Origin: Oscillospiraceae bacterium
GTDB taxonomy: Bacteria > Bacillota > Clostridia > Oscillospirales > Ruminococcaceae
Length of the DNA: 64,000 bases
Assembly (NCBI GenBank): GCA_009781425.1
Contig: WQYC01000002.1
Location: forward strand, 62,001 to 126,000
Direction: 5' to 3'
Position 1 is the first letter of the stretch. Every line of letters begins with the position of its first letter. A program made the translations under genes and the position numbers. The notes beneath the pieces were generated by a model. It was not told the origin of the DNA. It did no database searches and worked only from the letters and a program-made list of their open reading frames with translations. This document shows positions 42,745 to 53,950 of the stretch, one piece after another.

Positions 42745-45004
42745 CGCTGCCGGTATTATACCTGCAGCCGCTTTTGATACCGTGCCTGAAATCAGGCGTT
42801 CGGCTTCTTCAACGACTGATACGCGGCGAGTTACGAGGGGGCAGAGCTTTGATATTGTTATAAACGTCTTCGACGCAAGCTTTCTTGTTGATATTTTTAC
42901 GCTTGTCAGCATGGACAACAGCGATTTAGTTTTAACAGCAAGCGATATTAATGTGCCGTCATCTATCGCGGCAAACAGAAGCTATCGCTTTACCTTCAAA
43001 GTCCCCGATAATGCCGCGAGACGGCAGGATATTACTTACACAATCAGCTATTCTTATATGGACGAGGACACAGGAATGATGTCAGGCTCGCGGACGTTCA
43101 GCGTACCTGTTGAGGTCACTGACAGTACGGCTTCGGCTTCGGCACCTCTTCTCGAAAACATAAAGGTTAACGGCTTAAATATCTCGGGCGAAATATTCGT
43201 CACTGAAAAAGTCACAAATGCTGAGCTGACTATAAACAGAGGAAGCACACAATTAGCGCGCGAGTATCTGAACGTGGTCAACGCTACAGATAAGGGTTTT
43301 CCTTTTTCCTTAGATGTAACTGCGCTCAACACGGCGGATAATACGCCGCTCGTTGTCACACTTACATACGTAAACAGCAGCGGCACATCGCAAACCGTGA
43401 GCAAAAATATCCCCGTAAGTGCGTTCGGCTCGTCGGCTGCACCGCCGACGCTTGAAAATCTAATTGTTATCCAAAATGAGGTTTTCGCGGAGGACGCATT
43501 TGATTTAAACGTTGATATATTCCCCGGCGGTGATAAAATTACCGGCGCGGTGTTAACGGTAAATCACGGTGCAAATCAATTAGTTCGTAAGTTTATCGGA
43601 GCTTTGGACGCGGGCTTTTCCTTAGCTGAAGCAGTAAAAATATCGGGAATCGACACTGTCGGTAATCAAGTGCTGACTGTTACGCTTGAATACAGGGATT
43701 CCGCGGGGATTAACCATGTTATCAGCAAAAATGTAACCGTGAACGTACAGCCGACAAGAGCTGACAGCGGCTTGTTAAACTTGCAAAATCTTTCTGCGCC
43801 TTTCCGCGGTGAATTGGATTCACGCGAGAATATGTCCTTCTCCCTCACTAACCCGACATCGTCTGCTATTAGCGGAATTGAAGCGTTTTTATACGACGAC
43901 GGCGGTAAGGAAATCACTTCGATTTACATAAGCGAAATTAAATCAAACTCCAGCGAAACATTTACGCTTTCGTTCCCTGTAACTGGAAGAACAGGCAGCC
44001 GCAGCTACAGTCTCAATATAACCTACAGAGACGCGGCGAACACGAAAAGGTCAATAAACAGCAGCTTTTCAATCAACGTAACAGCGGGCGAGGACAACGA
44101 GCGGGCGGCGGGGATAAGAATTCAAAGCATTAATACTCCCGCGCAAACGAACACAGGCGTAAGGACAAATATACCTTTCACTTTGGTTAACGCGGGCAGA
44201 GGCACGGCTTATAACGTTGAGGTTTATGTTTTAGACGAGCAGGGCGTTGAGCTCGCGCGTGAATTCGTTGGTAATATTCCGGCGGGCGGAAGCTCTTTTG
44301 ACACGTCTTTTCGACTGAGGTTCGACGACCCCGATATTTATAATCTGACCTTTTACGCTGTCAGCGAGAGCGCGGACGAAACGCTGTCGCAGGTGAGCCG
44401 TGCGTTTGAGCTGCGGGTGGTGAATTACCGCATTACTTTTGCTGATGTAGGCGGGCATGAATGGATTTGGAACAACATGACTACTATTGAATTCGCTCTG
44501 ATTAACGGCGGAAATGAAGAAATGCTCAACGTCAACGCCGAGCTCACAGACGCAAAGGGTAACGTATTCGGGCAGGCGTATATCGGTTCTGTTTTGCCGG
44601 GCGAGAAGAAAGAACGCGTAAGGTTCAGAGATGTTTTCATTTGGGACGACGGAATGGGCTTCATGGAGCTGTTCATAAAGCTTACATACGAAAATAAAGA
44701 AATGCAGGAGTTCCCTGTTTACCATTCGCTCAACGCGACCTTTTCAAGTGACGGCGGCTGGGTTGACCCGCCGTGGAGCGATAACTGGGGAGATGATTGG
44801 GAGTTTGAGGAAGAATCCGACACGGTTTGGTTAGTTATTCTTATTGTAAGCATAAGCGTGCTTCTTGTCGGCGGAATCATCACCTTCGTCGTTATCCGCG
44901 CTAAGAAGAAAACGAGAGATGAGGACGACGATATTGATTACTTTTTATCGCAGATGAAAACGGATAATGCGTCCGCTGAAGCCAAAGAGGAAATAACACA
45001 ATGA
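42698..45004 (+). CDS. Secreted CARDB/Ig-like repeat protein with C-terminal membrane anchor, ABC exporter partner
   Basis: 768 aa. Signal peptide (1-25); then repeated beta-sandwich units of about 100-120 residues, e.g. PLLENIKVNGLNISGEIFVT, PPTLENLIVIQNEVFAEDAF, LQNLSAPFRGELDSRENMSF and IRIQSINTPAQTNTGVRTNI, the COG1361/CARDB style; a C-terminal membrane helix (about 705-730, LVILIVSISVLLVGGIITF) and a short charged tail. It lies between the ATPase and the permease with overlapping starts, so it should form part of the machine, perhaps as a surface adaptor. AAGGA before the ATG. Confidence 0.85.
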   Translation: MKKLLLTLLTVILAINAAGIIPAAAFDTVPEIRRSASSTTDTRRVTRGQSFDIVINVFDASFLVDIFTLVSMDNSDLVLTASDINVPSSIAANRSYRFTFKVPDNAARRQDITYTISYSYMDEDTGMMSGSRTFSVPVEVTDSTASASAPLLENIKVNGLNISGEIFVTEKVTNAELTINRGSTQLAREYLNVVNATDKGFPFSLDVTALNTADNTPLVVTLTYVNSSGTSQTVSKNIPVSAFGSSAAPPTLENLIVIQNEVFAEDAFDLNVDIFPGGDKITGAVLTVNHGANQLVRKFIGALDAGFSLAEAVKISGIDTVGNQVLTVTLEYRDSAGINHVISKNVTVNVQPTRADSGLLNLQNLSAPFRGELDSRENMSFSLTNPTSSAISGIEAFLYDDGGKEITSIYISEIKSNSSETFTLSFPVTGRTGSRSYSLNITYRDAANTKRSINSSFSINVTAGEDNERAAGIRIQSINTPAQTNTGVRTNIPFTLVNAGRGTAYNVEVYVLDEQGVELAREFVGNIPAGGSSFDTSFRLRFDDPDIYNLTFYAVSESADETLSQVSRAFELRVVNYRITFADVGGHEWIWNNMTTIEFALINGGNEEMLNVNAELTDAKGNVFGQAYIGSVLPGEKKERVRFRDVFIWDDGMGFMELFIKLTYENKEMQEFPVYHSLNATFSSDGGWVDPPWSDNWGDDWEFEEESDTVWLVILIVSISVLLVGGIITFVVIRAKKKTRDEDDDIDYFLSQMKTDNASAEAKEEITQ

Positions 45005-46416
45005 AATTCATAGATATTATCCGCACCTGTTTGCGTAATTTGACTAAGCGAAAAATACGCACACTGCTGACGGTTTCCGGTGTTTTAATCGGTACGAGCG
45101 CAGTTATAGTCATGCTTTCACTTAGAGTCGGCATGAACATACAGATAACGAAAATGCTTTCGGAGTGGGCAGATTTAACGCTGATTCACGTTTATAACTG
45201 GGGCAGATGGGACGCTGACGACGATATTGTCCCGCCCGACTTAGACGACAGCATAGTAAAATCATTTATGAGCATGGATAACGTAATGTCTGCTACGCCT
45301 TTTTACACTAACTTTCAAAGCGGATTTCAAATCGCTGTGTATACTGCGGACGGCTGGGTTTTAATGTATACGCCCTTCATAGGTGTATACATGGACGAAC
45401 TCGAAAACTTCGGCTTCCGCCTGACAGAAGGACGCTTTAAGCAGGAGGGCGACCCGCCGACAACTATTCTTATGGGGCCTTTTGCGGGCGATTATCTCCA
45501 GAGCTATATTTATGAAAATGAGTACCTTTGGTCGGAGTGGGGCTACGACGAGGAAACCGACACATGGGATATATTAAGTATGCCGATTGATGATTATTTC
45601 AAGGAAGAGCTGCGGATAATCCCGCTGACAATGGGCGAATGGTGGCAGGCTGACCTTTCGGTTATCGGTTCAAAAACTGCGCCGAACTTAGAATATGACG
45701 AAGAGTTAAACTTGGTAGGAATCCTCGAAGCTTCACCCACCGACTGGGAAGCGCGGAACGGAATCTTCATCGACATAAGCTATATGGCAGGTTTAATCAA
45801 GGCATACAACGAGCTCAACCCCGACAACAGGTACGAGGAATTCAACGGTGTATATAACAATGTCCGCGTAAGGGTTGACGACATGAACAACGTCCCCGCT
45901 GTTGAAGCTGAAATCAAAGCTATGGGCTTTCAAACCTCCTCCTTCAACGAAATGCGCGAGAACATGATGCAGCAAATCGGCACAATCCAAATGCTGCTCG
46001 CGGCTGTGGCGGCGGTTTCTCTGCTTGTTGCGACGATGAATATAACTAACACGATGATAATGGCGATTATTGAACGCACAAAGGAAATCGGAATCATGAA
46101 GGTTCTCGGCTGTGACATCGGTAAAATCCGCTTGATGTTCCTCGGAGAAGCCGCACTAATCGGCTTCCTTGGCGGTGCGGCGGGAGTGCTTTTCAGCTAC
46201 GGGCTGTCGTTTATTATTAACAACTTCTTTGGGCAGGCACTTATGGGAATGTTCATGCACAGCGGCGGCGATGAAAAAATCAGCATTTCGATTATTCCCC
46301 CGTATCTCGTGCTTTTAGGGCTCGCAGGCGCGACAATTATCGGAATGTTGGCGGGCTTATATCCTGCACAAAGAAGCATAAAAATCAGCGCACTGTCGGC
46401 GATTGCACATGAGTAG
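45001..46416 (+). CDS. ABC transporter permease, MacB/FtsX-type
   Basis: 471 aa. An N-terminal helix (about 20-42, KIRTLLTVSGVLIGTSAVIV), a large extracytoplasmic domain (about 45-325) and three helices at the end (about 328-350, 380-410, 430-455) with the FtsX-like ATMNITNTMIMAIIERTKEIGIMKVLGC motif. Layout as in MacB. ATG overlaps the partner protein stop (ATGA). Terminator directly downstream. Confidence 0.95.
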   Translation: MKFIDIIRTCLRNLTKRKIRTLLTVSGVLIGTSAVIVMLSLRVGMNIQITKMLSEWADLTLIHVYNWGRWDADDDIVPPDLDDSIVKSFMSMDNVMSATPFYTNFQSGFQIAVYTADGWVLMYTPFIGVYMDELENFGFRLTEGRFKQEGDPPTTILMGPFAGDYLQSYIYENEYLWSEWGYDEETDTWDILSMPIDDYFKEELRIIPLTMGEWWQADLSVIGSKTAPNLEYDEELNLVGILEASPTDWEARNGIFIDISYMAGLIKAYNELNPDNRYEEFNGVYNNVRVRVDDMNNVPAVEAEIKAMGFQTSSFNEMRENMMQQIGTIQMLLAAVAAVSLLVATMNITNTMIMAIIERTKEIGIMKVLGCDIGKIRLMFLGEAALIGFLGGAAGVLFSYGLSFIINNFFGQALMGMFMHSGGDEKISISIIPPYLVLLGLAGATIIGMLAGLYPAQRSIKISALSAIAHE

Positions 46417-46469: not shown

Positions 46470-47387
46470 TTACTCTATAGTTACCCACATAGCAGGGCGG
46501 ACTCTAAAGTTCGCAGAACCGGTATCACCCGACATAATTATTTCGCCTTTATCAGTTACATATGCAAAGCTACTGCCGCTGTCGCCCGGCGTGCGAAGCC
46601 ACCATGGAGCTCCTCGAGTTGCAGTTTGCTGTTGTGTGGCTATTCTGTTTTCGTTAAATTCATCGGTGATTCTTGCAAATCTTCCTGTTTGGTTAGCGGG
46701 CTGATTGCCGAGCTGACCGCTGTCACCGAAGTATTTCACGACTTCCTCTACACTAAGCAAAAATAATTTATCCGTTACAGTTGCGCCGCCGTTTGTTTTA
46801 AACCAAGCATTGTTAGGAGTAGAAACCGATGTTTCATTTATGAGGTGAACCATATCTAATCTGTTTATATAAAAGTCAGACTGAAATGCCTGCATTGTGC
46901 GGAAGTCGCTTTCTGCCCATGTTGTCGCCATGACTCCGTTATTCGTTGACGCAGGTGCATAATAAGACAAGAGCAATGCTTTTCCGTCTCTGACTTCAAG
47001 CACAATCCAAGTTGTTTCTTCTTCTCTTGTGCTTTTGCCGAAGCGGACAATATCTCCTGATTTAGATGCCGCTGTGAGCGGCGTTTCCGAAATTGCCGCA
47101 GGTCTTTCTATCGGAACAAAATTATCGTCTCTGCCGAGAGTGCCTATTTCATTATAAGTATTTCCCGAAATCCCCGCTACTGTTCTTAAAACGCGCAGTG
47201 CGTCTGCCGAAGAAACATTGTCTGTTATGCCGTATTTTGTCTGCTGTTCTGCTGTCAAGGTAGTTATGCCTGCTACCGCGCGCAAAATTGCCAACGCGTC
47301 TGCCGTCGTCAAGTCCGACGCGGACGCCGCCACGGGAAGCGAAAGGAACATCGCCGCGATAAGTAAAACCGAGATAATTTTTTTCAT
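46470..47387 (-). CDS. Secreted dockerin-like protein with DUF6273-type domain
   Basis: 305 aa from ATG 47387 with GGAGGA 4-5 bases upstream (an in-frame TTG at 47399 contains that site). Signal peptide 1-25, a dockerin-like module at about 26-75 (LTTADALAILRAVAG, NVSSADALRVLRTVAG; the second calcium loop is shortened to GITDNVSSAD), then a DUF6273-like domain at about 100-305: IVRFGKS, TTWIVLEVRDGKALLLS, FLLSVEEVVKYFG, APWWLRTPG, RVRPAMWV. The family is frequent in gut Clostridia, resembles fibrobacter-type surface domains, and has no known activity. Promoter 47419-47447. Confidence 0.85.
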   Translation of the reverse strand: MKKIISVLLIAAMFLSLPVAASASDLTTADALAILRAVAGITTLTAEQQTKYGITDNVSSADALRVLRTVAGISGNTYNEIGTLGRDDNFVPIERPAAISETPLTAASKSGDIVRFGKSTREEETTWIVLEVRDGKALLLSYYAPASTNNGVMATTWAESDFRTMQAFQSDFYINRLDMVHLINETSVSTPNNAWFKTNGGATVTDKLFLLSVEEVVKYFGDSGQLGNQPANQTGRFARITDEFNENRIATQQQTATRGAPWWLRTPGDSGSSFAYVTDKGEIIMSGDTGSANFRVRPAMWVTIE

Positions 47388-47418
47388 GATTTCCTCCAAA
47401 TAATTTTTTCGTGCTTTA

Positions 47419-47558: not shown

Positions 47559-48461
47559 ATGAATTTTACTCATGATATAATAAAAGGCTCACCCCATAAA
47601 AAAATACTCCCCCCTAAAACTGCTTTAGTTTTAGAGGGCGGCGGAACGCGCGGGTTTTACAGCGCGGGCGTTTTTGAGGCGTTTTTGGACGAGGGGATTA
47701 TGTTCCCGTACATCGCCGGAGTCAGCGCAGGTGCGGCGAACGCGCTTACATACGTCGCGGGACAGCGCGGGCGCAACAGGCAGATTGTTGAGCATTACGT
47801 CGGCAACAAAAAATACGTCAGCCGCCGAAATCTGCTCAGATACGGCTCGCTGTTCGGTTATGATTTTATATTCGGGACGATTCCGGATAAGCATATTTTT
47901 TGGGACAGAGAGGTTTTCGAGAGCACAGATATTCGCTTCCTGACAGGTGCAATCGACTGCAACACAGGCGAAACCTTTTGGTTCGAGAAGCAGGAAATTA
48001 CGCAGGGCTTCCCTGCTTCTGTGGCGTCCTGCTCGGTTCCGCTTGCATCGAAAATCGTGAAGCTCGGCGGAAAGCTTTTACTCGACGGCGGCGTAAGCTC
48101 GCCGATTCCGATTGAAAAATCAATCGAGGACGGCAACGAGTTTCACGTCGTTGTGCTGACTCGCAACGAGGGTTATCAGAAAAGTGCGTTCCGCTTCAAA
48201 GGCATTTTGAAATTATTTTACGGGAAATACCCGAATTTAATTCATGCGATTCTGAACAGGCACGAGGTTTATAACCGTCAGCTTGCGCTCTGCGAGCAGC
48301 TTGAACGCGAGGGAAAGGCGATAATTATCAGACCGCAAATCCCGCTCGCAGTTGAGCGAGCGGGAACGGATATTAAGAAGCTACTTGCGCTTTACGATGA
48401 GGGGCATGACGAGGGAAAGCAGGCGGTTGAAGTGCTGAAAGCGCGGTTTAATTTTTATTAA
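47559..48461 (+). CDS. Patatin-like phospholipase (RssA/YjjU type)
   Basis: 300 aa. Oxyanion loop ALVLEGGGTRGFYSAGVF, nucleophile elbow IAGVSAGAANAL (Ser in GxSxG) and catalytic Asp in LLDGGVSSPIP. The C-terminal part matches the bacterial YjjU-type patatins (ERAGTDIKKLLALYDEG). Expected activity is acyl-ester hydrolysis of phospholipids at the membrane's inner face; there is no signal peptide. Start ATG behind GAGGTG. Ends 4 bases into the convergent SBP-anti-sigma gene. Confidence 0.9.
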   Translation: MNFTHDIIKGSPHKKILPPKTALVLEGGGTRGFYSAGVFEAFLDEGIMFPYIAGVSAGAANALTYVAGQRGRNRQIVEHYVGNKKYVSRRNLLRYGSLFGYDFIFGTIPDKHIFWDREVFESTDIRFLTGAIDCNTGETFWFEKQEITQGFPASVASCSVPLASKIVKLGGKLLLDGGVSSPIPIEKSIEDGNEFHVVVLTRNEGYQKSAFRFKGILKLFYGKYPNLIHAILNRHEVYNRQLALCEQLEREGKAIIIRPQIPLAVERAGTDIKKLLALYDEGHDEGKQAVEVLKARFNFY

Positions 48462-49993
48462 TAGCTATTAAACATATAAATGTCAAGAGCTTGCTGAATT
48501 AAAGGCTCTGCTTCGGAAACAAACTCGGCGGCAGTCATTTCACCGTTTAATAAAGATTCTATTAAATGTATTCCGCCTCCGCCAGTATACCACAAATCAA
48601 AACCGAGGTTTTGGCTCATCATGTATGCGTAATCGAAATTGCGCTCATTCATATAGCACCCTCTCGACCATTCAAGGTCTTCGGCGAGAGTGCGGTCGTA
48701 ATCATACCAGTTATGCCAATCGAACATTACGTCGTAAACTAACCTTGGATTTTCTGTGTTTGCAGGTATGAAGAACCAATTTATATTAGCTGCTGTGCTA
48801 TGACTGTTTGTCGCTTGGTTACCGCTCGGACCTATGGGCCACGGGACTACGCCAATTTCAAACGGCAGTTCCGCCGCGCCGTGTTCAGATAAAATCCAGT
48901 CTGCTCCGACAAAGAAAGCGGCTTTCCCTTGGACATACGAATCATTATTTTTTTGCCAGCTTGTTTCATTCAGCGGGCGTCCCGTGCGGTCAGTATTATA
49001 AATCGTGTAGAAAAATTCAAACGTTTCAAGTACTTCGGGAGACATCATAATTGTTTCGGGTTCAGTCGCAATCGCCGTGCCGTTTGAGAACAGCAGATTT
49101 TCAAGCATATTCGTCCAGTAGCCGCCCCAACCGTAGATGTCCTCCTCGGGAACAGTCAGCGCGATTAAATACTCACGCCACACATCCCACGTCCACTCGC
49201 CTCTGTCCCAAAGGTCCTGCGGGTTTTCAAGCCCTTTTTCCAAAATCATGTCTAAATTAAACGCTAAGGGGTAAACAGGTACGCTTTGAAGTGCCGACGG
49301 AGCGAACAAATACGTTTCCGGTTGACTGAGATTCAAGCTCCTCATAACCTGATTTGCTCCGAATACGTCAGTGTTTTCAAGTCCGAGCGATTCAAGCGAA
49401 GCCGCAAGATTTTTGAAAACAACCGGTGCACCGAATGAAAAATCAACAAAGTAAACGTCACATTCCATCAAATTTTGTATGCTTTCCTGAATACCGCCCC
49501 AACCTAAGTTTACGAATTCGAGCCTTATGTTATAGCGTTCTTCAATAGCGCGCATATTTGCAAGCTGCATTTCTGCGGCTTCAATATCGTATACCCACGG
49601 ATTGTCATAAACATTATCGTGCTGTGACGTGTAATACATATCGTACCATGTGCCGATAGTTATTACGCGAGGTGCGTCGGAAACTGAAGTGATAATTACC
49701 GAGTCCGGGTCCGGCTCGGGGTCTGTGTCAATTGCTTCAGGCTCAACCTCTACTTCGTAACCGCTTCCAAGCGGTGCGGTGGGAATAAACCAGCCGTTCA
49801 GTGCGAACCCCGCACCTGCGATTCCTATTACCAAAATCAAAGCTGTAAGCGCGTAAAGCGGCTTGAACGCGGCAGTTCTCGGTCTGCCGTTTGCTTTTTG
49901 ATTGACCTTGCGAACGAAAGCCTCGTCACTCCCCGGCGGCGCTATATCAAATAAATCCGTATAAATTTTCTCCTTGTTTGTCCTGTTTGTCAT
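48458..49993 (-). CDS. Anti-sigma-like membrane protein with solute-binding-protein ectodomain
   Basis: 511 aa from the ATG at 49993, which has AAGGAGG 9 bases upstream. Residues 1-45 are a short cytoplasmic segment (NKEKIYTDLFDIAPPGSDEA); about 46-66 is a membrane helix (LYALTALILVIGIAGAGFAL); an acidic linker follows; about 110-511 is a full solute-binding-protein-like domain of the sugar-binding family 1 type (VPVYPLAFNLDMILEKGLEN, DLWDRGEWTWDVWREYL, YVQGKAAFFVGADWILSE, FEIGVVPWPIGPSGN). It has no lipobox, unlike transport SBPs, and overlaps the ECF sigma gene by 47 bases. That position is where an anti-sigma factor sits. So it probably holds the sigma factor and senses an extracellular ligand, likely a saccharide. 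Confidence 0.8.
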   Translation of the reverse strand: MTNRTNKEKIYTDLFDIAPPGSDEAFVRKVNQKANGRPRTAAFKPLYALTALILVIGIAGAGFALNGWFIPTAPLGSGYEVEVEPEAIDTDPEPDPDSVIITSVSDAPRVITIGTWYDMYYTSQHDNVYDNPWVYDIEAAEMQLANMRAIEERYNIRLEFVNLGWGGIQESIQNLMECDVYFVDFSFGAPVVFKNLAASLESLGLENTDVFGANQVMRSLNLSQPETYLFAPSALQSVPVYPLAFNLDMILEKGLENPQDLWDRGEWTWDVWREYLIALTVPEEDIYGWGGYWTNMLENLLFSNGTAIATEPETIMMSPEVLETFEFFYTIYNTDRTGRPLNETSWQKNNDSYVQGKAAFFVGADWILSEHGAAELPFEIGVVPWPIGPSGNQATNSHSTAANINWFFIPANTENPRLVYDVMFDWHNWYDYDRTLAEDLEWSRGCYMNERNFDYAYMMSQNLGFDLWYTGGGGIHLIESLLNGEMTAAEFVSEAEPLIQQALDIYMFNSY

Positions 49994-50456
49994 AGTCAAA
50001 ATCCTCCTTTTCGATGATTGTTTTTAATTGCTCTCTCGCCCGCTTCAACTGCGTTAAAACAGTATTCTGCGGCATTTTAAGTATAACTGCGATTTCCTTC
50101 GCTGTGTATTTTTCATAATAGTGCAAATAAATCACAGTGCGGTATTTGGGTTTCAGCTTCTTCACATAGTCGTAAAGGTGCAAATCATGATTTTCGGGCA
50201 CAGCTAAGCTCTCGTCAAGCGCGGTTGTTTTTCTGAACCACGCGGATTTGAGCAGGTTCTTCGCCTCGTTTACAGCAACGCGAATCAGCCAGGCTTTCTC
50301 GGCTTCCGCGCTGTCAAAGGTTTTGCCCTTGGTCATTAGCTTCACGAACACGTTCTGCGTAACATCGTCAGCGTCATGAATATTACGGACATAGCCCAGC
50401 GCAACCCTAAAAACAAGACTGCGGTATTTTTGCACGCTGTCGCTTATATCGTTCAC
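49947..50456 (-). CDS. ECF-type RNA polymerase sigma factor
   Basis: 169 aa from GTG 50456, with AAGGAGG 7 bases upstream; the in-frame TTG at 50507 lies before that site. Region 2: YRSLVFRVALGYVRNIHDADDV (split, about 8-30) and QNVFVKLM, AWLIRVAVNEAKNLLKS; region 4: PKYRTVIYLHYYEKYTAKEI and MPQNTVLTQLKRAREQL. Regions 1 and 3 are missing, which defines the ECF group. Co-expressed with the SBP-fused anti-sigma-like protein. No housekeeping promoter is visible between the upstream terminator (50503-50531) and the start, so it may drive its own transcription. Confidence 0.93.
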   Translation of the reverse strand: MNDISDSVQKYRSLVFRVALGYVRNIHDADDVTQNVFVKLMTKGKTFDSAEAEKAWLIRVAVNEAKNLLKSAWFRKTTALDESLAVPENHDLHLYDYVKKLKPKYRTVIYLHYYEKYTAKEIAVILKMPQNTVLTQLKRAREQLKTIIEKEDFDYDKQDKQGENLYGFI

Positions 50457-50502
50457 TTTATCGCCTCCTTGAATAAAATTCGGCCGTCTGACAGTAATAC
50501 AA

Positions 50503-50531
50503 TTCAAAAGGGAGAATTATTTCATTCTCCC
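50503..50531 (-). terminator. Terminator of the DUF2461 gene
   Basis: Minus strand: GGGAGAA, TGAAATAA loop, TTCTCCC, then TTTT. Separates the DUF2461 gene from the sigma factor. Confidence 0.7.
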
Positions 50532-52297: not shown

Positions 52298-53950
52298 ATG
52301 AATTACGCGGGAATTATAATAAGTTTTTTAGGGAGCTTAGGGCTTTTTCTGTTCGGAATGACCGTAATGTCCTCGTCACTGCAAAAGAGTGCAGGCTCAA
52401 AGATGAAACAGCTACTCGGAAGAATGTCGAAAAGCAGGTTCAGAGGCGTTCTGTTCGGTGCGGGAGTTACTGCGATTATACAAAGCTCGACAGCGACTAC
52501 GGTTATGGCGGTAGGCTTCGTGAACGCGGGAATCATCAGCCTTACGCAAATCGTCGGAATAATAATGGGTGCGAACATCGGAAGCACTACGACAAGCTGG
52601 TTAGTTTCGAGCGTTGAGTGGATGAGCTTTTTGAAGCCTGTTTACTTAGGCTCGGCTTTCGCGGCAGTCGGAGCATTTATTCTGCTGTTTTCAAAGAAGC
52701 GCAACGTCAAAAGCATAGGCGAGGTGCTTGCGGGCTTCGGCGTGCTGTTCATCGGACTTTCGCAAATGCCCGACGCTGTTAAGCCGCTGACAGACTTAGA
52801 TGTTGTGCAAAACGCATTTGTCACGTTCGGGAATAATCCGCTTTTAGCCATGCTCGTGGGCATTGTCGTCACGGCAATAATTCAAAGCAGCACGGCTTCA
52901 ATCGGGATTTTGCAGTCGATGGCAGTCACAGGCATGATTCCGTGGAGCGCGGCTGTTTTTATCGTGCTGGGACAGAACGTCGGCACCTGCTTTACAACCA
53001 TGCTCACAAGTATCGGCGCGAACAGAAACACCCGCGCCGCATCGTATGTGCATTTTGTCTACAACGCAATCGGCGCAGTCGTGTTCAGTATAATCGCGTT
53101 TATATTTTTCACGTTTATTAATCCTGAATTCGGCACGGAAGCCGCGTCCGCCACAAACATAAGTTTTATTCACACGGGCTATAATATTTTATTACTGCTG
53201 CTTTTATTTCCGCTCGGTGCGGTAATAATGCGGCTCGCCGTGAAAATGGCAGGAAGAGAAAAGGAAGAAGCAACGAACAAGCGTGGATTAACCGAGCTCG
53301 ACGACAGCATACTCGAAACGCCTGAATACGCGCTCAAAAACAGCTTAGAAGCAGTGAAAAAGCTGACTGACGAGCTCGGCGTGCAGGTAACAGACGCCGC
53401 CGCCGCCATGAAGCTGACAGACGAAAGAAAAGCTGATTTCTGGAAGAAAATCGCCGATACCGATAAATTAAATTCAATGATAAAAACGTTTTTAACCAAG
53501 CTTCACAACGAAAAGCTAAGCGACTCCGAGCACGTTTTAGTCGTTGTATTATTACAGAATTTAACAAGCCTGCAAAGAATCAGCAATCACGTAAAAGGGA
53601 TAATTAAACAAAGAGATGATTTAAAAAGTGCGAATCTGCCCTTCACCGAAGAAGACGAAGCAATGCTTCTTGATACAGCCGAGAAGATGTCTTCGTGCTA
53701 TGGTTTTGCTGTCGGAGCGTTTCATGAGCAGGGGGCTTACGGGACAGGCGATTCCGAAGCCGCGGCAGAGAAAGCCGACGAAGTAATGAAAATACGCGAG
53801 AGCTACAAAAGCGGGCATATTTCCCGCGTTTCAGGCGGCGCGAATATACAAACAGACACGATTTTAATGGAAATAGTTCGGCATATGTCGCGTATTGTAT
53901 ATCACGCAAGGAGCATTGCCGAGTCTGCGCACGGCGAAGAAACACATTAA
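52298..53950 (+). CDS. Na+/phosphate cotransporter with C-terminal PhoU-like domain
   Basis: 550 aa. Two NptA-type repeats: LFLFGMTVMSSSLQKSAGSK, then GVTAIIQSSTATTVMAVGFV in the first and GIVVTAIIQSSTASIGILQS in the second (the QSST motifs of the family). About eight membrane helices up to residue about 315. Residues about 335-550 are a helical PhoU-like domain (LDDSILETPEYALKNSLEAV). Imports phosphate with sodium. A separate phoU is at 20605. Confidence 0.93.
   Translation: MNYAGIIISFLGSLGLFLFGMTVMSSSLQKSAGSKMKQLLGRMSKSRFRGVLFGAGVTAIIQSSTATTVMAVGFVNAGIISLTQIVGIIMGANIGSTTTSWLVSSVEWMSFLKPVYLGSAFAAVGAFILLFSKKRNVKSIGEVLAGFGVLFIGLSQMPDAVKPLTDLDVVQNAFVTFGNNPLLAMLVGIVVTAIIQSSTASIGILQSMAVTGMIPWSAAVFIVLGQNVGTCFTTMLTSIGANRNTRAASYVHFVYNAIGAVVFSIIAFIFFTFINPEFGTEAASATNISFIHTGYNILLLLLLFPLGAVIMRLAVKMAGREKEEATNKRGLTELDDSILETPEYALKNSLEAVKKLTDELGVQVTDAAAAMKLTDERKADFWKKIADTDKLNSMIKTFLTKLHNEKLSDSEHVLVVVLLQNLTSLQRISNHVKGIIKQRDDLKSANLPFTEEDEAMLLDTAEKMSSCYGFAVGAFHEQGAYGTGDSEAAAEKADEVMKIRESYKSGHISRVSGGANIQTDTILMEIVRHMSRIVYHARSIAESAHGEETH

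Follow-up and report, generated by a model that had tools for sequence, protein, structure and literature searches.

Several described systems resemble a gene pair that we analysed in a gut-type Oscillospiraceae bacterium (assembly GCA_009781425.1, contig WQYC01000002.1, positions 62,001 to 126,000; this whole stretch of 64,000 nucleotides is called the window). The pair encodes an extracytoplasmic function (ECF) sigma factor and an anti-sigma-like membrane protein, P0001, whose head resembles a transporter-type solute-binding protein (SBP). RsiV/SigV, like related ECF30 pairs with DUF4179 anti-sigma factors, likewise combines a Firmicute-type ECF sigma factor with a membrane-bound anti-sigma factor whose ectodomain binds a ligand; once RsiV, which carries DUF4179, has bound its ligand, a site for signal peptidase close to the helix becomes accessible, and site-2 protease cleavage follows (PMC6066255, available excerpt). 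Its head is a lysozyme receptor, whereas that of P0001 is a transporter-type SBP domain. RsgI, the partner of SigI in the dockerin host Clostridium thermocellum, also has an N-terminal inhibitory part, one helix, and divergent heads including carbohydrate-binding modules, and the introduction of the paper does not list SBPs among these heads (PMC12203970, available excerpt). ECF52 and ECF53 of Actinobacteria are likewise predicted sigma/anti-sigma systems with carbohydrate-binding or glycosyl-hydrolase domains, but there the sigma factor forms one polypeptide with the anti-sigma part, the helix, and the sugar-related domains, and the available excerpt mentions no SBP domain (PMC10766802). The Venus-flytrap sensor kinases of the BvgS family use a periplasmic-binding-protein fold as receptor too, with a histidine kinase output where P0001 is anti-sigma-like (PMC5829827, available excerpt). 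No SBP-headed anti-sigma factor was found in a literature search that covered titles, abstract openings, and few subscription papers. We know of no signal for most ECF sigma/anti-sigma pairs in such Firmicutes; a head with a known parent protein and gene neighbourhood permits a direct guess at the ligand and makes the question of what such pairs sense testable.

The pair and the parts of P0001 are laid out as follows.

49947–50456, reverse strand: ECF sigma factor gene, 169 residues, GTG start at 50456 and stop at 49947; Pfam matches to Sigma70_r2 (5e-15) and Sigma70_r4_2 (7.1e-13)
50464–50470, reverse strand: Shine-Dalgarno sequence AAGGAGG of the sigma gene, from the sequence
48458–49993, reverse strand: gene of P0001, the SBP-headed anti-sigma-like membrane protein, 511 residues, ATG at 49993 and stop at 48458; from the open reading frame (ORF) and homology
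50003–50009, reverse strand: Shine-Dalgarno sequence AAGGAGG of the P0001 gene, located within the sigma gene, from the sequence
49859–49993, reverse strand: residues 1–45, charged, putative sigma-binding cytoplasmic tail with the family pattern YkxLFdIxxPGSxExF; from phmmer (2.1e-7) and alignment
49799–49858, reverse strand: residues 46–65, single hydrophobic membrane helix with small residues (AGAGFA) at its outer end; read from the sequence and alike in close relatives
49676–49798, reverse strand: residues 66–106, acidic and proline-rich extracytoplasmic linker, read from the sequence
48473–49675, reverse strand: residues 107–507, SBP domain, from homology to lipoproteins
49460–49483, reverse strand: residues 171–178, altered TSIxxGxPD loop, five residues shorter than in the lipoproteins, from alignment

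A sequence-only reading of this DNA had described a compact ECF sigma gene that overlaps by 47 bases a gene coding for a 45-residue tail, one helix, and a full-length SBP-like domain, with no lipobox and no transporter genes nearby. These observations are confirmed. The overlap spans 49947–49993, and the sigma factor carries both Sigma70 regions above their cut-offs in 169 residues, which places it among ECF (group IV) sigma factors as defined by regions 2 and 4 only and a length under ~200 residues. C178 and C446 are the only cysteines of P0001, so it has no lipobox and is not a lipoprotein. The interpretation built on these observations, a one-component sugar sensor with a transport-type head, was partly supported, as detailed below.

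Relatives of the window's sigma factor (E ≤ 1e-15) were detected in 71 of the 99 genomes searched; sigma genes in the same-genus genomes G017 and G021 are 68–70% identical to it. Among the matches listed there were at least 150 places with a sigma relative; one belongs to the window itself, 139 were retrieved, and ten were left out. Six regions of the own genome (G000) were added, and one of them, L147, gave no sigma match. L220, L233, and L235 repeat the pairs L087, L088, and L092, so that the resulting 144 loci represent 141 distinct pairs; three listed sigma genes are outside this count. A bitopic-type protein was encoded directly downstream on the same strand in all 144 loci with a sigma match (84/85 and 60/60; 141 distinct), a figure that is partly built in because the rule for choosing ORFs favoured those with a hydrophobic segment; a fallback to any ORF was allowed, yet every chosen ORF had a helix, and size, place, and N-terminal likeness are not built in. 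The hydrophobic stretch of these proteins begins at residue 38–83, with one stretch in 136 proteins and two in eight. Residues 1–70 of P0001 matched the N-termini of other sigma-linked proteins with a best E of 2.6e-10 (26 matches listed with E ≤ 0.0012), which lifts the observation beyond chance, and residues 1–45 alone still gave 2.1e-7 (phmmer).

The proteins that match the tail of P0001 carry unrelated heads (alignment A5). Pfam scans of the heads covered two sets of 85 and 60 proteins, with P0001 in both and 143 others; L233 and L235, among the 60, are truncated repeats. M23 heads were found in 17 of the 143 (12 of the 85, five of the 60) and DUF4179 heads in 15 (nine and six), followed by DUF5050 (five and one), PASTA (two and two), and LRR (one and none). 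RsgI_M was present in 2/60 proteins of A4, P0001 not among them, and most scanned proteins had no Pfam match. Because heads change between loci, the conserved unit is sigma factor, tail, and helix, and it is the head that varies. A tree was built from 27 sigma factors, with stops in the translations set to X; in it the nearest relative of the window's sigma factor was that of L064 (support 96/92), whose downstream partner has a DUF4179-like head (0.00018, under the cut-off), the domain of RsiV. As side observations on this family, M23 is the commonest identified head among the sigma-linked membrane proteins, as in L082 (G000:C38) and L079; L065 and L066 (by Pfam) and L072 (by likeness) have DUF5050 heads and sigma factors 57–68% identical to the window's; and an anti-sigma-like protein with an LRR head is encoded at L069:2476-3624.

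The head of P0001 is a full-length SBP domain by homology that is invisible to Pfam. P0001 gave no Pfam match at E ≤ 1, including the SBP, DUF4179, and RsgI models, and matched NCBIfam TIGR03850 at 4.6e-4, far under the model cut-off. The head matched PDB chain 6rjy, an arabino-oligosaccharide-binding protein, at E 2.6e-8. Because Pfam was empty, a profile was built from 13 lipoproteins aligned in A3, and it matched residues 84–506 with E 3e-181, which establishes whole-domain homology to family-1 SBPs. A lipoprotein paralogue in the same genome (G000:C21), itself recognized as SBP_bac_1 (45.9 bits, Pfam cut-off 26), is 57% identical over residues 107–506. Lipoproteins of the same-genus genomes G012, G020, G026, G045, and G053 are 55–59% identical to the head and that of G085 32%; weaker matches to P0001 (23–30% identity) occur in G092, G043, and G004. 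A contig scan of named genomes returned nine loci, namely two repeats (L155 = G012, L162 = G026), L163, and six further lipoproteins from Oscillospiraceae or Clostridiales metagenome-assembled genomes. L163, a weak Helarchaeota match to residues 6–84 (5e-4), falls within an unrelated ORF and was discarded as a chance match. A search of plasmid records with P0001 gave three weak SBP matches only.

Homology between P0001 and the lipoproteins starts mostly at residue ~105, downstream of the tail and helix. All 13 distinct ectodomain relatives have a signal running into a cysteine and are of lipoprotein type, as read from their sequences, and a sigma match was not found within the fetched stretch of any of them. 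The sequence-only reading had named SBP-like homologues consistently encoded away from sigma factors as a refutation; this is literally the case for the 13, but the test was badly posed, because these homologues are lipoproteins of the importer type in which the N-terminal 100 residues are missing. P0001 shares its domain with them; unlike them, it carries an anti-sigma-like tail ahead of the domain, its version of the conserved loop is changed, cysteines are absent from the vicinity of the helix, and the four neighbours scanned include no importer gene.

Because its tail resembles the sigma-linked family and its ectodomain relatives are all importer-type lipoproteins, P0001 looks like a captured transporter SBP. 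In our judgement the pair is probably an autoregulated ECF sigma factor with its membrane anti-sigma factor, the latter from a family with conserved tail and helix and swappable heads, and the head of P0001 a copied SBP of an oligosaccharide ATP-binding cassette (ABC) importer. Its position directly downstream of the sigma gene and its single helix are those of a membrane anti-sigma factor, and the layout is alike in related loci; we infer that P0001 binds and inhibits the sigma factor. That a transport-type binding protein serves as an anti-sigma sensing head is thus well supported by the sigma-linked N-terminal family, the SBP lipoprotein relatives, and the same kind of fusion elsewhere. The label 'one-component' is loose, as the system is a two-protein sigma/anti-sigma pair.

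The pair may work as follows. A copy of an SBP would have been joined to the scaffold, which replaced its lipoprotein signal and linker. In the absence of ligand, the 45-residue tail would keep the sigma factor bound. In its presence, the SBP lobes would close, and closure would be relayed via the acidic linker such that the outer end of the helix becomes accessible to a site-1 protease, which on the model of RsiV would be signal peptidase. Next, an M50 site-2 protease would cleave within the membrane, and the freed sigma factor would transcribe its own operon and others. The genome has matches to M50 proteases (best 1.3e-57).

SBP heads were identified by profile and Pfam in four of 142 distinct surveyed proteins, P0001 included. 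L076 matched SBP_bac_8 (3.9e-13), L229 and L237 matched the lipoprotein profile (2.9e-10 and 7e-8), and SBP_bac_8 was found in 2/60 proteins. L229 and L237 share 50.6% identity from end to end, and G104 adds a third genome, with a full-length match (51% to L237) that has a sigma gene upstream; within this three-genome lineage, identity to the G027 copy across the length of that protein is 51–53%. The search for other ECF sigma factors with SBP-fused membrane proteins that the sequence-only reading had proposed thus yielded L076, L229, L237, and L266, all of them directly preceded by a sigma gene. L076 had only chance-level BLAST matches to L229 and L237. Its five nearest genus relatives (34–36% identity) begin at L076 residue 77 or later, and the three of these that were checked have lipoprotein-type starts and no sigma match. 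Seven closer SBP relatives of L237 (L267–L273) also have lipoprotein-type starts; among the four tested for a sigma gene (L267–L270) none was found. Because every head has its closer kin among lipoproteins and not among the other heads, the simplest account is a minimum of three separate captures of an SBP head, in the window gene, in G021, and in the three-genome lineage. A broader proposal, to which we give even chances, is that ECF anti-sigma factors of this genus have repeatedly, at least three times, recruited duplicated importer binding proteins as ligand-gated heads, so that the sigma factor would measure the importer's substrate (here perhaps beta-mannan oligosaccharides) and the head would be altered while giving up transport. 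In line with the last point, the loop that is partly lost in the P0001 head is kept in all 13 transport copies compared. If true, repeated capture of importer SBPs by one scaffold would show evolutionary swapping of sensing heads, a plug-in path from transporter to transcriptional sensor by which new sugar sensors could evolve simply, and would offer natural designs for sugar-responsive switches.

The substrate of the parent can be approached through the importer neighbourhood of the paralogue. The C21 gene run, which starts close to the contig end, comprises a DUF5696 protein, two BPD_transp_1 permeases, a lipoprotein-like protein with no Pfam match, the SBP paralogue, and a GH5 protein, and is adjoined on the opposite strand by GH2 and Melibiase_2 (alpha-galactosidase) genes. 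In G045, genes for GH130 (Pfam 3.9e-67), an epimerase, and ManA (above cut-off) then adjoin; the best NCBIfam match of the epimerase is cellobiose 2-epimerase, under cut-off. The G020 run is alike in its gene starts, with a GH130 match under the cut-off. For beta-1,4-mannan oligosaccharides, a route through GH130 and an epimerase is known. These neighbourhoods suggest that the parent of the head took up plant-wall oligosaccharides, and because of this known route they were perhaps derived from beta-mannan.

Upstream of the sigma gene, two further features were delineated.

50495–50521, reverse strand: putative sigma-autoregulated promoter AATAATT-N13-TGTATTA, with 0 mismatches to RAYAATT-N13-YGTATTA
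50479–50491, reverse strand: segment directly after the -10 that contains CGGCCG, from comparison of upstream sequences; degenerate in the window

The pattern RAYAATT-N13-YGTATTA was derived by eye from 16 upstream regions and scored at up to two mismatches. It was present upstream of 9/14 sigma genes at least 52% identical to the window's (0.3 expected), a circular count as this set was used to build the pattern. Among sigma genes with 39–52% identity it was found in 16/63 regions (1.05 expected; maximum of five in 100 first-order resamples); two of these 63 regions had been viewed when the pattern was derived, and neither is among the 16 positives. Below 39% identity it occurred in 1/8 (0.08 expected). 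A promoter pattern common to the upstream regions of related sigma genes supports autoregulation of the window's sigma gene. In many related loci, including upstream of the L063–L072 sigma genes, inverted repeats (AAGACGTCTT, CAGAAGCTTCT, GAAAGCGCTTT, and similar) directly follow the -10; their sequence varies between loci and their roughly palindromic form is kept. They could represent an operator or a hairpin in the 5' transcript, and in the window no stable structure was found by RNA folding of the 5' end (z 0.48). A second exact promoter match in the genome (G000:C9:39128-39154) lies upstream of an 81-residue XRE-type regulator, lacks an inverted repeat, and is probably due to chance.

Several results weigh against a captured, ligand-gated SBP head that controls a regulon. 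Strong relatives of P0001 occur in 6/71 genus genomes, of which the other five have lipoproteins, and the exact fusion was seen in one genome only. In the head tree P0001 is grouped, at weak support, with the same-genus lipoproteins, and its branch of 0.64 compares with 0.07–0.32 for six same-genus lipoproteins; two other lipoprotein branches measure 0.46 and 0.68, the latter being the maximum apart from the outgroup. P0001 differs at nine of the 57 columns that are invariant in the 13 lipoproteins, four of them within the TSIxxGxPD loop. In a control without L154, six lipoproteins, each compared with the other 11, differed at 0–7 of 83–90 invariant columns, and P0001 showed 9–11 differences against the same sets, a modest excess. 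Because of the long branch and the changed columns, the head may no longer bind the parental sugar. The mannan guess itself is soft, because the NCBIfam GH130 subfamily matches, including one to beta-1,2-mannobiose phosphorylase, are all under their cut-offs and GH5 carries the name cellulase in Pfam. The promoter pattern (≤2 mismatches) was not enriched in the genome (241 sites versus 223 for the reversed pattern) or in the window (six sites versus 4.7 expected), and thus supports no regulon. P0001 is also not of the DUF4179 (RsiV) type, defined by a domain over the membrane and juxtamembrane region, as it lacks any Pfam match at E ≤ 1.

One alternative holds that P0001 is a true anti-sigma factor with a decayed or re-purposed head, which would sense envelope stress, a protein, or the parental ABC permease and not a small ligand. 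A branch longer than those of the same-genus lipoproteins, the altered TSIxxGxPD loop, and a change at W341 would fit, as would the M23, PASTA, and DUF4179 heads of the family, which suggest cell-wall signals. Retention of most lipoprotein-conserved tryptophans (W116, W267, W269, W272, W293, W346, W366, W385) and a reading frame open across the whole domain argue against this, and we regard re-purposing as unlikely, if a serious contender.

P0001 might instead be an anchored binding protein still at work for an ABC importer, with a signal anchor in place of the lipid and only incidental adjacency to the sigma gene. This would agree with the 55–59% identity of its ectodomain to importer-type lipoproteins and with the importer gene run present in the same genome. 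However, sigma-linked proteins whose heads are unrelated have a similar tail and helix, none of the four scanned neighbours is an importer gene, and in three further genomes another SBP-headed protein is kept next to a sigma gene; the tail and the gene overlap make a purely transport role improbable. An assembly or binning artefact joining an anti-sigma gene to a lipoprotein gene, conceivable in a genome of 67 contigs with the exact fusion found once, is very improbable because equivalent fusions recur (one in three genomes), and it is further opposed by an in-frame join inside a 138.9-kb contig, by GC contents of the two parts (0.51 and 0.45) that lie around the window mean of 0.465, and by nearest lipoproteins (57–59% identical) too distant for a repeat mis-join.

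Zinc-binding class I anti-sigma domains use cysteines. P0001 has none before C178, and its tail of ~45 residues is shorter than the 50 or more residues before the helix given as the limit for ASDI (PMC7406223, available excerpt); it was not assigned to this class. Nor does it belong to RsgI: the parallel drawn in the sequence-only reading stands as a functional likeness, but the partner is an ECF sigma factor instead of SigI and P0001 has no Pfam match, RsgI included. By analogy, the captured-SBP system would work like RsgI and RsiV, yet without the defining domains of both.

The four scanned neighbours encode patatin, DUF2461, flagellin, and DUF6273 proteins, and no importer gene was found among them with Pfam, so that the claim of missing transporter genes holds for these four. 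Two ORFs within 4 kb, 45001–46416 (exporter permease-like) and 52298–53950 (Na/Pi cotransporter-like), were assigned by eye, and neither looks like a sugar importer. The DUF6273 protein (46470–47399) has an N-terminal double repeat that is dockerin-like by eye, with no Pfam dockerin at E ≤ 1. The genome does encode dockerins, as had been stated from the sequence alone, with 28 PF00404 matches, 24 of them above the cut-off.

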